A stretch of 64,000 nucleotides of DNA, from assembly GCA_003212795.1 (NCBI GenBank), contig QCOV01000001.1, forward strand, positions 401,321 through 465,320, written 5' to 3'. The notes under the pieces are model-generated. The model was not told the DNA's origin. It saw only the letters and a list, made by a program, of their open reading frames with translations, and searched no databases. How positions within the stretch are numbered: the stretch's first letter is position 1; each line of letters starts with the position of its first letter. A program made the translations under genes and the position numbers. This stretch comes from OCS116 cluster bacterium AG-435-F03 (GTDB taxonomy: Bacteria > Pseudomonadota > Alphaproteobacteria > MED-G09). This document shows positions 11,535 through 40,793 of the stretch, one piece after another.

Positions 11535-11621
11535 GCGGCCGTGGCGGAACTGGTAGACGCGCAGCGTTGAGGTCGCTGTGGGGTAAAACCCGTGGAAGTT
11601 CGAGTCTTCTCGGCCGCACCA
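11535..11621 (+). tRNA. tRNA-Leu (anticodon GAG)
   Basis: An 87-base class II tRNA folds cleanly. The acceptor GCGGCCG pairs with CGGCCGC, and the anticodon stem CAGCG/CGCTG encloses the loop TTGAGGT, giving anticodon GAG that reads CUU and CUC. A long variable arm (TGGGGTAAAACCCG) is typical of tRNA-Leu. The T arm contains TTCGAGT, and a CCA end is encoded. The mgtE start lies only 11 bases after the CCA, so the two are probably cotranscribed. Confidence 0.95.
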
Positions 11622-31012: not shown

Positions 31013-31873
31013 ATGAATGATAAACTCGAAGATTTAATTAATCTTTTAGATATAGAAAGAATTGAAAAAAATCTTTTTAGAGGTGAAAGCCCAAGTGATA
31101 GATGGCAAAGAGTTTTCGGTGGTCAAGTTATTGGTCAGGCTTTAGTCGCTGCAAGTAGAACTGTAGAAAATAGAATATGCCACTCTTTGCATGCATATTT
31201 TTTAAGGGCTGGAGATCCCAAAGTACCCATCTTATATGAAGTAGATAGAGCAAGAGATGGAAGATCTTTTACTTCTAGAAGGGTAGTAGCAGTCCAACAT
31301 GGTAAAAAAATATTTAATATGTCTGCTTCATTTCAAATTGAAGAGGAAGGATTAAATCACCAAGACCCAATGCCTAAGGTTAAAAGTTTTGAAGATTTAC
31401 CATCAGAACATCAATTAAGAAAAAAAATTATTGATAAACTTCCTGATGAATATAAGGATAGTTTTAATAAGGAATGGCCTGTAGAGGTTAGACCTATTGA
31501 TCCTGTTGAATTAATGAACCCTGAGCCTAAAGAGCCACAAAACTACATATGGTTTAAGGCTAGATCATCATTACCTGATAATGTTTCCCTTCATCAATGT
31601 GTTCTTGCTTACATGTCAGATATGACACTTCTAGATACATGCACAAATCCTCATGGTGTTAATTTTATGAATCCTAACCTTCATTCAGCCAGTCTTGATC
31701 ATGCTATGTGGTTCCATAGACCTTTCAAAGCAGATGAGTGGTTATTATACCATCAAGATAGCCCTTCAGCATCAGGAGCAAGAGGCTTTAATAGAGGATC
31801 AATATTTGACTTAAATGGTAATTTAATAGCTTCAGTTGCGCAAGAAGGGCTTATTAGGTTTACTAAGAGTTAG
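31013..31873 (+). CDS. tesB: Acyl-CoA thioesterase II
   Basis: A 286-residue double hot-dog thioesterase that hydrolyses acyl-CoA to free acid and CoA. It has FRGESPSDRWQRVFGGQVIGQAL, HSLHAYFLRAGDP, and GRSFTSRRVVAVQ in the first hot-dog. LAYMSDMTLLDT (catalytic Asp region) and SLDHAMWFHRPFKADEWLLY are in the second. Length equals that of E. coli TesB. The 3' end overlaps the convergent mutase gene by 11 bases. It may recycle CoA from acyl-CoA catabolism, alongside the propionyl-CoA genes in this window. Confidence 0.93.
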   Translation: MNDKLEDLINLLDIERIEKNLFRGESPSDRWQRVFGGQVIGQALVAASRTVENRICHSLHAYFLRAGDPKVPILYEVDRARDGRSFTSRRVVAVQHGKKIFNMSASFQIEEEGLNHQDPMPKVKSFEDLPSEHQLRKKIIDKLPDEYKDSFNKEWPVEVRPIDPVELMNPEPKEPQNYIWFKARSSLPDNVSLHQCVLAYMSDMTLLDTCTNPHGVNFMNPNLHSASLDHAMWFHRPFKADEWLLYHQDSPSASGARGFNRGSIFDLNGNLIASVAQEGLIRFTKS

Positions 31874-34010
31874 AAGATTCAATAATTTGTAACATTTCCA
31901 TTGCTGAATTAATAATATTTGTTCCTGTAGCAAAAATAGCAGAGGCCCCTATGTCTATTAAGGTAGAAAAATCCTCTTTTGGAATAACCCCACCAACAAT
32001 TACATGAATTTCATCATGCCCTCTGTTATCAAGCTCATCTCTTAATTTTGGAACTAATGTAAGATGACCAGCAGCTAAAGATGAAGCAGCAATAATATCA
32101 ACATTTAATTTAATTGCTTCTTCAGCAGCCTCAGATGGTGTTTGAAATAAAGGCCCCACATTTACATCAAAACCCATATCAGTGAGAGCGCTTCCTACAA
32201 CTTTTTGACCTCTGTCATGACCATCTTGACCAAGTTTAACAATATAGACTGATGGTTTTCTGTTTTCACGAATCTCAAAATCTTTAACTTTTTTTCTAAC
32301 TACATTTATTGTTTCTGATTCAAAATTTTCACCATAAATATCTTTAACCAAGTTGATCTTAGCCTTATGTCTTTTCCATACTTTTTCCATTGCTGACGAG
32401 ATTTCTCCAACAGTTGCACCTTCTCTTGCTGCATTTATTGCAAGTTCTAGTACATTTCCGTTTTTAGATGCGCCATCAGTTAATTCATTAAGCATTTTTT
32501 TGACTTTAGAATTATTTCTTGATTTTTTGATCTCAGCTAACCTATCGAGTTGATTTTTCTTAACCATTGAATTATCCACTTTTAAATATTCAATTTTTTC
32601 TTCTTCATTAGCAGATAAAGTAAATTTGTTAACTCCTACAACTGTATTTTCGCCTGAGTCGATTTTTGATTGTACTTTAGTAGCAGATTCCTCAATACGC
32701 ATTTTTGGTATTCCTTTTTCAAGTGCTTCTGTCATACCACCGTAACTTTCAATTTCTTCCATATGTTTCAAAGCTTTTTTAGCAAGTTCATGAGTAAGTT
32801 TTTCTACAAAAAATGATCCTCCCCATGGATCAATAACATCTGATGTTCCTGTTTCGTGTTGGATAAATAGTTGTGTATTTCTAGCTATTTGTGCTGAAAA
32901 ATCTGTTGGTAGTGCAATTGCTTCATCAAAGCTATTTGTGTGAAGTGATTGAGTATGCCCATGAACAGCTGATAATGCTTCTATGCAAGTTCTAGTAATA
33001 TTATTGAAAGGGTCTTGAGATGTTAAAGAATAACCTGAGGTCTGACAATGTGTTCTTAGTGCAAGTGATCGTGAGTCGGATGGATTAAAATCTCTTACAA
33101 TGTTTGCCCATAACAATCTTGCAGCTCTAAGTTTTGCTATTTCCATAAAATAATCCATTCCTATCGCCCAAAAGAATGATAATCTTGGCGCAAATGCATC
33201 AATATCTAATCCAGCATTAATACCTGCTTTTATATATTCTAAACCATCTGCTAGAGTATAGGCCAACTCAAGATCTGCAGAAGCCCCGGCTTCTTGCATA
33301 TGATAACCAGAAATTGAAATTGAATTAAATTTTGGCATATTTTTTGAAGTATATTCAAAAATATCTGAAATTATTCTCATTGATGGTTTTGGCGGATATA
33401 TATATGTATTTCTAACCATAAATTCTTTCAAAACATCATTTTGTATGGTGCCTTTGAGTTGATCTGGTTCAACCCCTTGCTCCTCGGCAGCAACTATGTA
33501 TAAAGCCATTATAGGAATTACCGCACCATTCATGGTCATTGATACGGACATCTTATCTAAAGGAATATCTTTAAATAAAATTCTCATATCTAATATTGAG
33601 TCTATTGCAACACCTGCCATTCCAACATCATCTGATACAATAGGGTTATCAGAGTCATATCCTCTATGAGTAGCTAAATCAAAAGCAATAGATAAACCCA
33701 TTTGACCTGCTTCAAGATTTCTCCTGTAAAAAGCATTAGATTCCTCCGCTGTTGAAAAACCAGCATATTGTCTAATAGTCCAAGGTTTATTTGCGTACAT
33801 GGTTGGGTATGGACCACGAACAAATGGATCTATTCCTGGGTAGGTATTTTGATGATCAAAGGCTTTTATATCATCTTTGGTATAGAAAGATTTCAAATTA
33901 ATGCCTTCAGGAGTAGTAAATATATTTTCTTTTGCTTCAAAATTATTCGGACTACTTTCATCTTCGTAATCAAGATCAATATTTTCTATTTCTTTAAATT
34001 TATTTGTCAT
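31863..34010 (-). CDS. scpA: Methylmalonyl-CoA mutase large (catalytic) subunit
   Basis: A 715-residue adenosylcobalamin-dependent mutase that converts (R)-methylmalonyl-CoA to succinyl-CoA. The TIM-barrel substrate domain includes YPTMYANKPWTIRQYAGFSTAEESNAFY, RTHCQTSGYSLT and RNTQLFIQHETGTSDVIDPWGGS (kept here as landmarks only). The C-terminal B12 domain has KLGQDGHDRGQKVV, whose His ligates cobalt, and GGVIPKEDF. It is translationally coupled to the small-subunit gene upstream (11-base overlap). With pccBA it completes propionyl-CoA entry to the TCA cycle; the epimerase and the MeaB chaperone are not in the window. Confidence 0.95.
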   Translation of the reverse strand: MTNKFKEIENIDLDYEDESSPNNFEAKENIFTTPEGINLKSFYTKDDIKAFDHQNTYPGIDPFVRGPYPTMYANKPWTIRQYAGFSTAEESNAFYRRNLEAGQMGLSIAFDLATHRGYDSDNPIVSDDVGMAGVAIDSILDMRILFKDIPLDKMSVSMTMNGAVIPIMALYIVAAEEQGVEPDQLKGTIQNDVLKEFMVRNTYIYPPKPSMRIISDIFEYTSKNMPKFNSISISGYHMQEAGASADLELAYTLADGLEYIKAGINAGLDIDAFAPRLSFFWAIGMDYFMEIAKLRAARLLWANIVRDFNPSDSRSLALRTHCQTSGYSLTSQDPFNNITRTCIEALSAVHGHTQSLHTNSFDEAIALPTDFSAQIARNTQLFIQHETGTSDVIDPWGGSFFVEKLTHELAKKALKHMEEIESYGGMTEALEKGIPKMRIEESATKVQSKIDSGENTVVGVNKFTLSANEEEKIEYLKVDNSMVKKNQLDRLAEIKKSRNNSKVKKMLNELTDGASKNGNVLELAINAAREGATVGEISSAMEKVWKRHKAKINLVKDIYGENFESETINVVRKKVKDFEIRENRKPSVYIVKLGQDGHDRGQKVVGSALTDMGFDVNVGPLFQTPSEAAEEAIKLNVDIIAASSLAAGHLTLVPKLRDELDNRGHDEIHVIVGGVIPKEDFSTLIDIGASAIFATGTNIINSAMEMLQIIESSNS

Positions 34011-35349
34011 AACTATTAATTTTTTCGTAAGGTTTTATATTAATTTCTCTTATCTCTTTATCGGGGTATAAATTCACACCAATTCTTTTTATATTTTTTT
34101 CTTCAAGCATTTTATCTTTATTAGTTTTGTTTTCTGAGAGTTTGTTAACAAATTCTCTATTTTTAAGCAAACTAAGTATACCGCCATTTTTTTCAACATA
34201 TTTAACAAAATCAAATGACTTATCCGCAATTGATTTTGTAATGCTTTCAATATAGTAAGACCCACCAGCGGCATCTTGAATTTTTCCAATATTTGATTCT
34301 TCTTGAAGAATTATATGTGTATTTCTGGTTAATCTTCTAACAAATTCGGGCGCTTGTCCTAAAGGATTTGTTATATGATGACATGTTAGCCTATCTATAT
34401 TTGCTATTGCTGCAGAAAGGGCAGCATTTGTAATTCTTAATTGATTAACCCAGGGGCTTTCTTTAAAAATAATTTCATCAGATGTCCGACCATTAATTTT
34501 GAAAATTGGATTAATACCAAAATGGTCATAGAGATTATTTACAATAATTCTTAGGGATCTAATCTTAGCTATATTTAAGAAAAAATCAGTGTCTAAAGAA
34601 ATTGTGAAGTTAATTTGCGATTCATCATCAATAATATTATTTCTTAACATCTCAATAAAACTCAGACACATTAATGCTATTTCTTCATTTAATGACGCAC
34701 CTATGCTATTCCAGATTGCTCCATCAAAATTTATTAAATTAATATTCTTATTTTTATTGTCTTTGATAATTTTACATAAATTATTAATTAACTCAGTATG
34801 GTTAAATTCATTATCCTTTTCAAATTTAGAAAAGCTTATAGCTATGGCATCAATTTCTAATCCTCCTAATGGAGTTTTTTTATTCTTATGTTCCCAATTA
34901 TTTATTAAATTTAAAAACTTTGAGGATCCCTCTAATGGATTTGATATATCTCTGTAGAAAATAGGCGCTATAGAAAGATCAATACTTTTTAGAATTTCTT
35001 CACTTTCTTGGTCATGAATATAATTAATTTCAATAGATGACGCTCCGCGTTCTAATTCATTTAGAATTCTTGAGTTATATAATTTAATATCATTTGATGA
35101 ATCAACCATTGAACAAATATGCCAGGGAAGATATTCATTTATGTCTTCTTTTAAGCCTCTTGCATATGCGTGGTTGTTTTCAAGAGTGATATCATTTTCT
35201 GTATAAAGAATCTTTTTTTCTAAATTTCCATCAAATTTTTTTTTAAGATTATCAATTGTTTTTTCTTTTAATGATTGATTTGCAATATTTTCCCAATCAT
35301 CAAAATTTTTGCTTTGAGTTTCTAAATATTTTTGATAGTCATTTTTCAT
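34000..35349 (-). CDS. mutA: Methylmalonyl-CoA mutase small subunit, short form without B12-like domain
   Basis: A 449-residue partner of the catalytic subunit. It keeps the mutase barrel pattern (INFDGAIWNSIGASLNEEIAL, NAALSAAIANIDRLTCHH, EFVRRLTRNTHIILQEES, IQDAAGGSYYIES) but stops about 40 residues after the barrel. The C-terminal flavodoxin-like domain found in longer MutA proteins (about 620 residues or more) is absent. The stop overlaps the next gene, so there is no hidden remainder. Short beta subunits of this size are known to me from Bacteroidota, which makes transfer possible. It starts the two-gene operon and diverges from ccmC. Confidence 0.9.
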   Translation of the reverse strand: MKNDYQKYLETQSKNFDDWENIANQSLKEKTIDNLKKKFDGNLEKKILYTENDITLENNHAYARGLKEDINEYLPWHICSMVDSSNDIKLYNSRILNELERGASSIEINYIHDQESEEILKSIDLSIAPIFYRDISNPLEGSSKFLNLINNWEHKNKKTPLGGLEIDAIAISFSKFEKDNEFNHTELINNLCKIIKDNKNKNINLINFDGAIWNSIGASLNEEIALMCLSFIEMLRNNIIDDESQINFTISLDTDFFLNIAKIRSLRIIVNNLYDHFGINPIFKINGRTSDEIIFKESPWVNQLRITNAALSAAIANIDRLTCHHITNPLGQAPEFVRRLTRNTHIILQEESNIGKIQDAAGGSYYIESITKSIADKSFDFVKYVEKNGGILSLLKNREFVNKLSENKTNKDKMLEEKNIKRIGVNLYPDKEIREINIKPYEKINSYDK

Positions 35350-35421: not shown

Positions 35422-35453
35422 ATACTACTTTAATGATCAACAAAGGAAATGAA

Positions 35454-36170
35454 TTGAAATTACAATTAGTCAATCCAGGTATTTTAGAGAGATATATTAA
35501 AGCTCTGTCACCATGGTTTTGTGGGGCTTTTATAAGTTCATTAATTATTGGGTTATGGTTTGCTATCTTCAATTCGCCACCCGATTATCTTCAAGGTGAG
35601 ACTGTCAGAATTATGTATGTCCATGTTCCTTCTGCATGGATGGCTTTATTCATTTATTCATCAATGGCTGTAGCTAGTATAATTGGTCTAATTTATGGTC
35701 ATCTTGTAGCTTTCATATATGCTAAATCTGTTGCTCCTATAGGAGCAGTATTCACCCTCATTTGCTTAGTTACTGGTTCACTTTGGGGAAAACCAATGTG
35801 GGGCACATGGTGGGTTTGGGATGCAAGATTAACATCAATGTTTATTTTACTATTTATTTATTTAGGGTTTATCATTGTATCAAAATCTTTTAACGATCCT
35901 GTAAAAGGAGATAAAATTTCTTCTATTTTTGCTATTATTGGCTTTATTAACATTCCTATCATTAAATTTTCAGTAGATATTTGGACTACACTTCATCAAC
36001 CAGCAACTATTTCAAAACTTGATACACCTTCAATACACATAGATATGTTGATACCTCTTTTAGTAATGTTTGCTTCATTTATATTTTTGTTTTTATATAT
36101 TTTTTCTATAAGGTTTTTTAGTGAGTTAAACCTAAGACGTTATGTTGCATATACATTAAGTTCTAAATAG
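35454..36170 (+). CDS. ccmC: Heme exporter / cytochrome c maturation protein CcmC
   Basis: About 238 residues with six membrane helices. CcmC presents heme to CcmE in the periplasm. The tryptophan-rich heme-binding loop MWGTWWVWDARLTS is present, and conserved His residues lie in YVHVPSAWMA and LHQPATISK. I prefer the TTG at 35454, which has AAAGGA six bases upstream and fits the predicted promoter; the in-frame ATG at 35433 would add seven residues without a ribosome site. It is the first gene of the ccm operon. Confidence 0.93.
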   Translation: MKLQLVNPGILERYIKALSPWFCGAFISSLIIGLWFAIFNSPPDYLQGETVRIMYVHVPSAWMALFIYSSMAVASIIGLIYGHLVAFIYAKSVAPIGAVFTLICLVTGSLWGKPMWGTWWVWDARLTSMFILLFIYLGFIIVSKSFNDPVKGDKISSIFAIIGFINIPIIKFSVDIWTTLHQPATISKLDTPSIHIDMLIPLLVMFASFIFLFLYIFSIRFFSELNLRRYVAYTLSSK

Positions 36171-36183
36171 TTAAGATAAGGCG

Positions 36184-36324
36184 ATGTTTACAAGTTATAC
36201 AGTATATGTTTTTCTCGCATATTTTTTTGCATTTCTAGCTATTCTAATTTTATTTTTTTCATCAAACCTATTGTCACAGAGAAATTCAAAACTTATTGAA
36301 AAAATTAAAGAAAAAAATGATTAA
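36184..36324 (+). CDS. ccmD: Cytochrome c maturation protein CcmD (small heme-exporter subunit)
   Basis: A 46-residue protein reading MFTSYTVYVFLAYFFAFLAI then a hydrophobic stretch and a Lys-rich cytoplasmic tail ending KIKEKND. One membrane helix, tiny size, the tyrosine-rich N-terminus and position between ccmC and ccmE identify CcmD. It stabilises the CcmC-CcmE complex and aids release of holo-CcmE through CcmAB. Its last 8 bases overlap the ccmE start. It is easily missed because of its length. Confidence 0.88.
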   Translation: MFTSYTVYVFLAYFFAFLAILILFFSSNLLSQRNSKLIEKIKEKND

Positions 36325-36757
36325 AAGAAAAAAAAGAATTTATCTAATATCTTTATTTTTTATAACAATAGCTACATCTATTTATTTAATTTTGTGGGCT
36401 TTAAGAGATAATATTGTTTTTTTCTATTCTCCTTCAGAAATACAACAAAAAATAAGACTTAAAGAAATTGATGAAATGTCTAAACTTAGATTAGGGGGTA
36501 TGGTTAAAGAATCATCAATAGAACAATTTAATGATGGATCTATAAATTTTATAATTACCGATTTTGATAGAGAAATGGTTGTTTTTTATAAAGGTATTAT
36601 TCCTGATCTATTTAAAGAGCAACAAGGTGTTATTGCAGAGGGATCAATAAATAATGAAGGCATGTTTATTGCTAATTCAATTTTAGCTAAGCATGATGAG
36701 AATTATATGCCTCCTGAAGTTCAAGATACCTTAAAAAAAGACTATGGAGATAAATAG
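36317..36757 (+). CDS. ccmE: Heme chaperone CcmE
   Basis: A 146-residue periplasmic heme chaperone anchored by one N-terminal helix (about 7-28). An OB-fold beta domain follows (LRLGGMVKESSI, FIITDFDREMVVFYKGIIPDLF, GVIAEGS). Heme binds covalently through the His in the C-terminal LAKHDENYMP. The start is the ATG at 36317; an in-frame TTG at 36296 lies in ccmD and is not supported. The stop overlaps the GTG of the next gene by one base. Confidence 0.93.
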   Translation: MIKRKKRIYLISLFFITIATSIYLILWALRDNIVFFYSPSEIQQKIRLKEIDEMSKLRLGGMVKESSIEQFNDGSINFIITDFDREMVVFYKGIIPDLFKEQQGVIAEGSINNEGMFIANSILAKHDENYMPPEVQDTLKKDYGDK

Positions 36758-39018
36758 TGCTTACTCAATTAGGTAATTTTTTTATAGCTTTAGCCTTGTC
36801 AGCATCATTTATTCAATTATTTACTGTTATTTTTAATAAAGGTTATATTAGGTACGCTTTAGTCATTTCCTATATGACTATTATTCATTTTTTATCAATT
36901 TCATTAGCATTTTTGTTATTAATATATGGCTTTATTATATCCGATTTTACAATCCAAAATGTTCTTGAAAATAGTCATTCATTAAAGCCTATGATTTATA
37001 AAATTTCAGCTTCTTGGGGCAGTCATGAAGGATCAATGCTACTTTGGTGTTGGGTAATGGCTTTATATGGTTTTCTAATATCTATTAATAAACAATCACT
37101 TATAAAGGAAACTAAAAGTTTAGTATTACTATTTCAAGGTTTTTTGTCTTTTGGTTTTGTTTTTTATTTGTTTTTTTTATCAAATCCTCTAGAGAGCAGT
37201 AAAATAATAGTTGAAGAAGGATACGGTTTAAATCCTCTCCTTCAAGATCCTGGACTAGCATTTCATCCTCCTTTTTTATATTTAGGTTATGTTGGCTTAT
37301 CAATTGTTTGGTCATTTGCTTTAGCAGGATTAATAAGAAATTCTATTAATAAAGAATGGGCAAGAAATATAAGGGTTTGGGCTTTAACTTCTTGGATTTT
37401 CTTAACTTTAGGTATTTCTCTAGGTTCTTGGTGGGCTTATTATGAATTAGGGTGGGGCGGATATTGGTTTTGGGATCCCGTTGAAAATGTATCATTAATT
37501 CCATGGATCATTGCCACTGCTTTAATTCATAATTTATTAGCGTTAGAAAAGAAAGAAATCCTAATTAATTGGAGTGTTTTACTCTCTTTGTTAGGTTTTA
37601 TTTTATCAATAATTGGAACATTTATTGTTAGGTCGGGGTTAATTACCTCTGTACATGCTTTTGCTTCAGATCCAACAAGAGGAATATTTATCATTTTGCT
37701 ATTATTTCTTGTAACGCTCTTAAGTTTATCGATCTTTGCAAAAAAATACATGAAAAAACAACCAAATGTTGAGTTAAATTTTTTAAGTAAAGAGACATTT
37801 TTAATAATAAACAATTTATTCTTATCAGTTATTGCTTGTACAGTTTTTCTTGGAACAATTTATCCTCTAATTGTTGAAACAATTAATAATAATAGAATTT
37901 CTGTTGGCCCACCTTTTTACAACATTACTGTAATTCCTTTTGCAATACTTCTTGCATTATTTTCTGCTTTAGGACCAATTCTCGCCTGGCATCAAAATAG
38001 TATTAAGCAATTAGTAAGAAATATATCTATTCCTTTAGTTCTAACTTTAATGATAATCAGCATAACTTTTTTTCTATATGAAAATTTATCCTTAATTTTT
38101 CTTGTAGGTCTTTTTTCAGGGATATGGCTTTTTCTAAGTAGTTTGAACAATCTTGTACATGTTAGGTTTCAGGGCTTAAGTAACTGGGCCTCATTTTTTG
38201 CACATTCTGGATTTGCAATTTTAATTTTAGGAGTCAGTATTTCTAGCTCCTACCAAAATGAATATGAAGGTAAACTTAACATAAAAGACCAAATAAATTT
38301 CTCAGGTTATACTTTAAAATTTGAAAATTTTAATGAAGAGATTATTGAGAATTATATTACTACAAAAGGAAAATTCGAATTATCTAAAAATGATAGAAAA
38401 TTTTATCTTTATCCAGAAAAAAGATTTTATCCAATAGAGCAGTCTCAAACTACTGAGGCTGCAATTATTAGCAGTAAATTATCCCAATTTTATCTTGTTA
38501 TGGGTGAGCAGATAAATGATAAATCATGGGTTGTTAGAATATGGTATAAACCTATGATAATGCTAATTTGGATTGGCGGTTTATTTATGGGAATAGGTGG
38601 TTTGTTATCGTTATTTAAAAGAATTAAGATTAAACCTGCAAAGCAAATATCTTTTTTTATCATACTTACGATTTTATCAGGAAATCTTTTTGCCGATAAT
38701 AAAATACTAATAAGTGAAGATAGGGTAACAGATATTAGTCTGCAAATAAGATGTATGGTTTGCCAGTCGCAAACTATTGACGATTCTGATGCGCCCTTAG
38801 CTAAAGATCTTAAACAACTTATCAGAAAGATGGTTTATGAAGGAAAGAGTGATGATGAGATTTTTGATTTTTTGAGAAGTAAATATGGTGATTATATTTT
38901 AATGAAACCGAGGTTTAATTTGGGCAACTTTTTACTTTGGGTTGGACCATTCTTTATTTTGATTATTGGAATATTTACAATTTTTAAAGTATTTAAAATA
39001 AGTTTTAGGTCTGGTTGA
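36757..39018 (+). CDS. ccmF: CcmF-CcmH fusion protein, cytochrome c heme lyase
   Basis: A 753-residue polytopic protein starting at GTG. Residues 1 to about 625 are CcmF with many membrane helices, the heme-handling GGYWFWDPVENVS, and conserved PLI/HH-type segments. Residues about 629-753 are a complete CcmH/CcmL. They comprise the former signal helix ISFFIILTILSGNLFA, the redox motif RCMVC (Cys666, Cys669), DSDAPLAKDLKQLI, the KSDDEIFDFL..YGD block and a last helix. No ATG, GTG or TTG lies at the junction, so a separate ccmH start is unlikely. It ligates heme to apocytochrome CXXCH. ccmG and ccmI are absent from the operon. Confidence 0.92.
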   Translation: MLTQLGNFFIALALSASFIQLFTVIFNKGYIRYALVISYMTIIHFLSISLAFLLLIYGFIISDFTIQNVLENSHSLKPMIYKISASWGSHEGSMLLWCWVMALYGFLISINKQSLIKETKSLVLLFQGFLSFGFVFYLFFLSNPLESSKIIVEEGYGLNPLLQDPGLAFHPPFLYLGYVGLSIVWSFALAGLIRNSINKEWARNIRVWALTSWIFLTLGISLGSWWAYYELGWGGYWFWDPVENVSLIPWIIATALIHNLLALEKKEILINWSVLLSLLGFILSIIGTFIVRSGLITSVHAFASDPTRGIFIILLLFLVTLLSLSIFAKKYMKKQPNVELNFLSKETFLIINNLFLSVIACTVFLGTIYPLIVETINNNRISVGPPFYNITVIPFAILLALFSALGPILAWHQNSIKQLVRNISIPLVLTLMIISITFFLYENLSLIFLVGLFSGIWLFLSSLNNLVHVRFQGLSNWASFFAHSGFAILILGVSISSSYQNEYEGKLNIKDQINFSGYTLKFENFNEEIIENYITTKGKFELSKNDRKFYLYPEKRFYPIEQSQTTEAAIISSKLSQFYLVMGEQINDKSWVVRIWYKPMIMLIWIGGLFMGIGGLLSLFKRIKIKPAKQISFFIILTILSGNLFADNKILISEDRVTDISLQIRCMVCQSQTIDDSDAPLAKDLKQLIRKMVYEGKSDDEIFDFLRSKYGDYILMKPRFNLGNFLLWVGPFFILIIGIFTIFKVFKISFRSG

Positions 39019-39591
39019 ATGACATTACTTGTTAAAAATCTATCTTGTTATCTATCAGGAAGAAAAATTTTTTCAGATATAAGTTTTTCTCTAAAAACTG
39101 GAGAAATTTTAAAAATTTCTGGAGAAAATGGTTCAGGAAAAACAACACTTTTAAGAGTGATATCGGGACTAAGTTCATTTGAGTCAGGTGAAATATTAAT
39201 TAATAAAAAAGAAATATTTCTTCTTGGGCATAGTACCGGTATTAAACAAAATTTGACAGTTGAGGAGGATTTAGAGTTTTGGTCTAATTTTTATCAGAAT
39301 GAACATGATGATAAAATTTTAAAAAAACTAAGTCTTAATTCCAAAATATATTCACAATGCCGATATTTATCGCAAGGTCAAAAACAAAAATTAGCACTTA
39401 CAAGATTATTTTGTTCAAACAAAAAAATTTGGCTTTTAGATGAACCATTTTCATTTCTTGACGAAGAGTCATCTCTTTTCTTATTAAATAAAATTGAAAA
39501 TCATCGTCAAAATAATGGAATTATAATTATAGTTTCTCATCAAAATTTAATTAAAAACCCAGATATATCGATTAACTTGGGAGATCAATAA
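39019..39591 (+). CDS. ccmA: Heme exporter ATP-binding protein CcmA
   Basis: A 190-residue ABC ATPase with Walker A GENGSGKTTLLR, the signature LSQGQKQKLALTR, and Walker B IWLLDEPFSFLDEE followed by an H-loop VSHQN. It drives the CcmABCD complex that releases holo-CcmE. It is slightly shorter than E. coli CcmA (about 205) but complete. The ATG directly follows the stop of the CcmF-CcmH gene, and the ccmB ATG overlaps its own stop. The placement of ccmA-ccmB at the end of the operon, rather than before ccmC, is unlike E. coli. Confidence 0.93.
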   Translation: MTLLVKNLSCYLSGRKIFSDISFSLKTGEILKISGENGSGKTTLLRVISGLSSFESGEILINKKEIFLLGHSTGIKQNLTVEEDLEFWSNFYQNEHDDKILKKLSLNSKIYSQCRYLSQGQKQKLALTRLFCSNKKIWLLDEPFSFLDEESSLFLLNKIENHRQNNGIIIIVSHQNLIKNPDISINLGDQ

Positions 39592-40265
39592 TGAGAATTT
39601 ATAGGCTAATATTTTTAAGGGAATTAAGAAAAGTTTTTTCATATAAAGCAAACTATATTTTTAGTTTAATGTTTTATTCATCAATTATTTTTCTTGTTTC
39701 AATAGGATTGCAAGCACAAAATAGTATCTTACCTAATGTTGCGCCAAGTTTGATTTGGGTGTCTATAATATTAGTTTTGTTTTTATCATTTGAAGATATT
39801 TTTCAGGATGATTATTACGACGGTACGCTAGATATATATCTTATAGAAAATATTACATTTTATGGATTTGTATTAATTAAATGTATTTCACACTGGCTAG
39901 CAAATTGCCTGCCCATGATAATCATCACTCCTATAATCGGAATTTTCGTTAATCTTGACTCTGAAGTTATTTTACCAATGATGATAACTCTAATCATTGG
40001 AACTCCCGCATTAAGTTTTATAGGGTGCATGGGTTCAAGTCTAATTTTGTCTCTTAAGATTCATGGTTTAATAATGCCAATTATTATTTTGCCTTTATTT
40101 TTACCTATTCTTGTTTTTGGCATCGGAGCTTTAGATGTATTAATATTTAACGGATTTGAAGAGTTATTTTTTAGACAGCTTGCGTTGTTAGCAGGAATAA
40201 GTGGTTTATCTATGGCTTTTTGTCCAATAGCATCTGCATATATAATAAAAGCAAATTATGATTAA
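39591..40265 (+). CDS. ccmB: Heme exporter permease CcmB
   Basis: A 224-residue membrane protein with six predicted helices. The N-terminal FLRELRKVFSYKANYIFSLMFY, DDYYDGTLD and GSSLILSLKIHGLIMPIIILPLFLP landmarks are those of the CcmB family. It partners CcmA in the complex that frees heme-loaded CcmE. Its start overlaps the ccmA stop by one base, and it ends 3 bases before the convergent msrB gene, leaving no terminator space. It is the last gene of the ccm operon. Confidence 0.93.
   Translation: MRIYRLIFLRELRKVFSYKANYIFSLMFYSSIIFLVSIGLQAQNSILPNVAPSLIWVSIILVLFLSFEDIFQDDYYDGTLDIYLIENITFYGFVLIKCISHWLANCLPMIIITPIIGIFVNLDSEVILPMMITLIIGTPALSFIGCMGSSLILSLKIHGLIMPIIILPLFLPILVFGIGALDVLIFNGFEELFFRQLALLAGISGLSMAFCPIASAYIIKANYD

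Positions 40266-40703: not shown

Positions 40704-40793
<90 letters not shown>

Follow-up and report, generated by a model that had tools for sequence, protein, structure and literature searches.

In-frame CcmF-CcmH fusion genes in an OCS116 cluster bacterium and other lineages: a recurrent gene form, probably encoding a polyprotein cut by signal peptidase

When two subunits of the cytochrome c heme ligation machinery are encoded by a single gene, is the product one protein or two? The question is raised by a locus of the OCS116 cluster bacterium AG-435-F03, in a stretch of 64,000 nucleotides of contig QCOV01000001.1 that was analyzed as a whole and is called the window here (positions are those of the window unless another contig is named). 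From 36757 to 39018 on the forward strand runs one open frame of 753 codons, free of stops between its GTG start (36757) and its terminal TGA (39018), the GTG coming directly after the ccmE stop and the TGA directly before the ccmA ATG; the opposite strand has many stops throughout. An earlier, sequence-only reading of this DNA had described the frame as a complete CcmF followed by a complete CcmH, and the domain matches agree: Pfam Cytochrom_C_asm at residues 87-294 (E 4.9e-45), CcmF_C at 314-622 (E 5.6e-82) and CcmH (PF03918) at 653-746 (E 4.2e-36), with TIGR00353 (CcmF) at 585 bits against a cut-off of 569. CcmF, the heme lyase, accounts for residues 1-622 (36757..38622) and CcmH for about residues 647-753 (38695..39018, including the stop codon), and the junction or linker spans residues 619-652 (38611..38712).

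In the CcmF part the WWD motif reads WGGYWFWD (residues 233-240), and H170, H258, H300 and H483 are invariant in the alignment of the source family (f1), the four being identified as P-His and TM-His solely from their order and context (PMC8975832). In the CcmH part the redox motif RCMVC occupies residues 665-669 (38749..38763), with C666 and C669 invariant in the same alignment, and an AlphaFold2 (AF2) model places a C-terminal membrane helix at residues 722-745 (38920..38991). Both of these had been recognized beforehand, as had the former CcmH signal helix, which is retained at residues 629-646. The fused product consists of ordinary System I proteins; it is the form of the gene that is unusual.

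The operon has the order ccmC (35433-36170, TIGR01191), ccmD (36184-36324, 46 amino acids, assigned by position and a weak PF04995 match under the curated cut-off), ccmE (36317-36757), ccmF-H, ccmA (39019-39591, TIGR01189) and ccmB (39591-40265, PF03379, and TIGR01190 at 156.0 bits with a cut-off of 156.2), all on the forward strand, with ccmA and ccmB at its end as originally read. For ccmE, the ATG at 36317, overlapping the end of ccmD, is preferable to the listed TTG at 36296. Neither ccmG nor ccmI is in the operon. CcmG had been described as missing from the operon, which is right, but it is not missing from the genome (a draft of 1.44 Mb in 8 contigs, 95.8% complete): a genome scan, proposed together with that claim, found a CcmG/DsbE gene at 140.5 bits (NCBIfam cut-off 123.15) on another contig (G000:C2:251627-252121, locus L056). 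Orthologues 48-99% identical to it occur in ten further members of family f1, and loss of CcmG is rejected on these two grounds. The relocated ccmG stands alone, away from the other ccm genes, and its neighbor on the opposite strand is MiaB/MtaB-like (tRNA-modification-like, by sequence resemblance). A DsbD-like protein of 684 amino acids and cytochrome c1, a substrate, are also encoded in the genome, and the CcmH of ccmF-H is its sole CcmH. The System I set ccmA, B, C, D, E, F, G and H is all present, counting ccmD on its weak match and position.

For CcmI, which most proteobacteria have, the claim of absence extends from the operon to the whole genome: the scan gave no TIGR03142 match in the 95.8% complete assembly, even at E<=1, and none at E<=0.1 in 13 family f1 genomes, a search that might overlook a strongly diverged TPR protein. 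Going by its title, a 2005 paper reportedly describes the suppression of a CcmI-null mutant of Rhodobacter capsulatus by extra CcmG and CcmFH. In family f1, CcmF-CcmH and a distant CcmG seem to be enough without detectable CcmI. The protein is dispensable in E. coli and needed in R. capsulatus (PMC3601427).

Could the fusion be an error of assembly or sequencing that joined two genes? The source assembly is an 8-contig draft, and the sequence-only reading had itself pointed to a frameshift in the assembly as a danger. The search among relatives that it suggested, however, finds the same unbroken frame in independent assemblies of 13 genomes from three genera of family f1, namely the source and 12 others (G001, G002, G003, G005, G007, G008, G009, G010, G011, G013, G014, G016; the G008 copy lacks its 5' part, where its contig ends). 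In comparisons of congeners, dN/dS is 0.11-0.12 for CcmF, 0.15-0.25 for the linker and 0.08-0.16 for CcmH, a coding-sequence pattern from which it follows that the gene is under purifying selection and is coding across the junction. An artefact is refuted by these independent assemblies.

Another possibility is that the fusion is merely formal, CcmH being made also or only from an internal start. No start codon had been seen at the junction, and there is none at 38630-38660; just upstream, however, there are an in-frame ATG (residue 611, 38587..38589) and an in-frame TTG (residue 616, 38602..38604), both in frame in the window and in congeners; initiation at the TTG would produce an N-terminus resembling a signal peptide. 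Both lie inside the last CcmF helix, neither is conserved in the other genera, and both are rejected as CcmH starts. One genome of the family (G009) has no ATG, GTG or TTG within the 85 codons before RCxxC, which excludes an internal start as a family-wide mechanism, and another (G013) has in the same interval a single TTG, inside the last CcmF helix. Separate CcmH from such a start, which had been foreseen as a challenge to the fusion, is very unlikely in view of this comparison.

What, then, does the junction look like? In order, it has the last CcmF helix, the short basic segment KRIKIKPAK, a hydrophobic helix, likewise short, and LFA/DNK (a stroke marks the predicted cut). The hydrophobic helix, KQISFFIILTILSGNLFA (residues 629-646, 38641..38694), corresponds to the CcmH signal peptide, and it ends at a predicted signal peptidase I site, L644-F-A646/D647 (38686..38697, cut between 38694 and 38695), the position of which is supported by a column match with unfused CcmH: the presumed -1 Ala of the latter falls in column 646 in 26 of 28 rows. 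Mean identity within family f1 is 29% (pairwise) for linker residues 619-652, against 62.6% for CcmF and 64.0% for CcmH. Within this variable stretch, column 646 (-1) holds small residues only (11 Ala and 2 Ser among 13 sequences) and is the sole all-small column among 31 ungapped linker columns; column 644 (-3) is restricted to L, S and T, and the position between the two is free (F, Y, N, I, H). The source genus has Leu at -3, and two genomes have Ser at -1; these residues are permitted, and weaker than AxA. Eight fused sequences of other lineages, with sites located by eye (TLA/V, ANA/V, LQA/D, LFA/A, VRA/N, LNA/T, GQA/I, VFA/A), all have Ala at -1, with A, V, T, L or G at -3, so that a CcmH signal peptide and a site of the signal-peptidase-I -3/-1 type are present in 21 of the 21 fused proteins examined. 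Judged from sequence, this pattern looks like that of a signal peptidase site in use; the Ala or Ser kept at the end of the helix could also be due to the chemistry of the membrane boundary or to ancestry, and not to use.

Structure prediction, also suggested at the outset, gives both folds. The AF2 model (mean pLDDT 83, pTM 0.87) was run on a 47-row alignment in which twelve rows were extended past the ccmF stop so as to pair both genes, a treatment that may favor a fused geometry. Its CcmF part matches 6zmq (E 1.4e-25, TM-score 0.86 on the target) and its CcmH part matches 2hl7 and 2kw0 (probability 1.00), and linker residues 626-629 and 636-653 have pLDDT <50. The positive charges, together with the C-terminal anchor known for CcmH, point to a periplasmic CcmH domain.

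The gene form is not peculiar to the source family. A junction profile, run against 385 evenly sampled genomes of the class Alphaproteobacteria, finds one-frame CcmF-CcmH fusions in at least 12 genomes of four families among the best 150 or so matches listed per search, where weak fusions may be missed: f1, f6 (G022, G157, G255, G335), f116 (G323, G235) and f21 (G037). With the same limit on matches, a 398-genome sample of the phylum adds at least one fusion outside the class, in G618 (L189:3891-6344, reverse strand), where nearby genes encode proteins that resemble c-type cytochromes and have CxxCH motifs; the same genome has a separate ccmF/ccmH pair, its separate CcmH lying at C1:1765238-1765606. 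A scan of viral contigs returned no match. CcmH frames of 834-1039 amino acids in seven high-GC genomes (G352, G073, G143, G321, G294, G276, G370) were rejected as fusions, being separate genes whose frames overlap. G023 encodes a strongly diverged CcmF-like protein (L048:2710-4476, reverse strand; 30% identity), and no CcmH domain was found in that genome.

Fused and unfused forms stand close together in several places: the unfused G132 is a close relative of G323 and G235, and G265 of G037. A CcmF tree with 51 rows requires 5 changes to account for the fused state, at least 4 of them forced by well-supported branches; the counts are approximate, the method being quick and some branches long and AT-rich, and by themselves they do not distinguish gains from losses. 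CcmF and CcmH have become joined on several independent occasions in bacteria. In many relatives that lack the fusion, Rhodobacterales and Rhizobiales among them, ccmH comes directly after ccmF with no ccmG between, as in the fused gene, but a stop codon still separates the two. In 12 of 80 fetched loci the ccmH ATG is in the same frame and 0-12 nt past the ccmF stop, and the arrangement in G616, G434 and G633 is near-identical. Because the ccmF stop lies only a few codons before a same-frame ccmH start, loss of one stop codon is enough to fuse the genes; a single substitution there would leave the CcmH signal peptide in mid-chain. In genus g23, ccmF and ccmH are separate and overlapping in G265 (L184) and fused in G037 (L047).

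Taken together, the fused gene probably encodes a System I CcmF-CcmH polyprotein, made 1:1 and cut after Ala646 into ordinary CcmF and CcmH. Once ccmF and ccmH had been joined in frame, as by the loss of a single stop codon, the chain would insert as CcmF does, its last helix ending on the cytoplasmic side at KRIKIKPAK; the old CcmH signal peptide would then re-enter the membrane as an internal signal sequence, and signal peptidase I (assumed present) would cut after Ala646. CcmH would stay in the periplasm, anchored by its own C-terminal helix, and the two products, side by side and 1:1, would form the holocytochrome c synthase, with reductant supplied by DsbD and the CcmG encoded elsewhere, and with CcmI dispensed with. 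This is the most likely topology, processing and function of the protein. That the chain is probably cut follows from two features shared by all the fused sequences examined, the CcmH signal peptide and the conserved site of signal peptidase type; modeling of a CcmE-CcmF-CcmH complex also had to remove the CcmH signal peptide for CcmH to be placed properly on CcmF (PMC8975832). The original suggestion that fusion fixes the CcmF:CcmH ratio covalently stands as regards 1:1 synthesis, a fair inference; lasting linkage is not the best reading, given the conserved cleavage-type site.

The alternative is that CcmF and CcmH remain one chain, the former signal peptide serving as an extra membrane helix, and act as a single-chain holocytochrome c synthase whose ratio is indeed covalently fixed. 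The continuous, conserved frame is consistent with this, as is the shortness of the cytoplasmic turn that joins the linker helix to the last helix of CcmF, and there is a precedent in System II, where CcsB and CcsA are naturally fused in some bacteria and remain a single chain (PMC10663686). Against it, the linker is poorly conserved save at -1 and -3; its helix is short and signal-peptide-like, with a Pro/Ser break before the site, AF2 does not place it as a structural helix, and mature CcmH has been modeled with a free N-terminus (PMC8975832). An uncut chain is the main rival and is unlikely; its fuller version, with both ends of CcmH tethered next to the heme site of CcmF, CcmI unneeded and four or five independent origins of the arrangement, we consider improbable.

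For a polyprotein cut by signal peptidase there is a parallel in Bradyrhizobium FbcH, a cytochrome b-c1 polyprotein whose processing by signal peptidase has reportedly been shown by experiment. As there, one gene encodes a membrane protein and a signal-peptide-bearing protein with an internal -3/-1 site between them; the proteins are different, and processing of CcmF-CcmH is inferred. CcmF-CcmH is most likely comparable, by analogy, to FbcH. To our knowledge, internal signal sequences in bacterial polyproteins have rarely been documented. A cytochrome b-c1 polyprotein in the source genome itself was rejected as a parallel, cytochrome c1 being a separate frame of 265 amino acids.

Compared with known System I CcmF and CcmH (the CcmFH or CcmFHI holocytochrome c synthase), the WWD motif, conserved histidines, RCxxC, C-terminal helix, ccmCDE and ccmAB in the operon, and CcmG and DsbD in the genome are all shared; the differences are one gene instead of two, the moved ccmG and the CcmI that was not found. 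E. coli CcmH, a CcmH-CcmI fusion, is likewise a natural fusion in the heme ligation complex (PMC3601427), with other partners, one of them absent here. System II CcsBA of Helicobacter and relatives also joins two cytochrome c synthase subunits naturally (PMC10663686), but its composition is unrelated, no internal signal peptide has been described in it, and it functions as a single chain. No report of a natural CcmF-CcmH fusion was found among the open-access papers searched; the architecture may already be on record in protein domain databases.

CcmF and CcmH are believed to act as a complex, of which no experimental structure is reported in the literature searched (PMC10663686). That such fusions recur in nature is independent genetic evidence for 1:1 action of the two, and the fused genes could serve structural studies as single-gene constructs, in the way that fused CcsBA did for System II. 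Should the chain be cut, they would also be several convergent bacterial polyproteins processed by ordinary signal peptidase.

The window holds a few further features. Divergent from the ccm operon are two adjoining methylmalonyl-CoA-mutase-like frames of 715 and 449 amino acids (31863-35349, reverse strand). ARAGORN calls a tRNA-Leu (anticodon GAG) at 11535-11621, under the Rfam tRNA gathering score, and a tRNA-Ser at 40704-40793 reaches that score.
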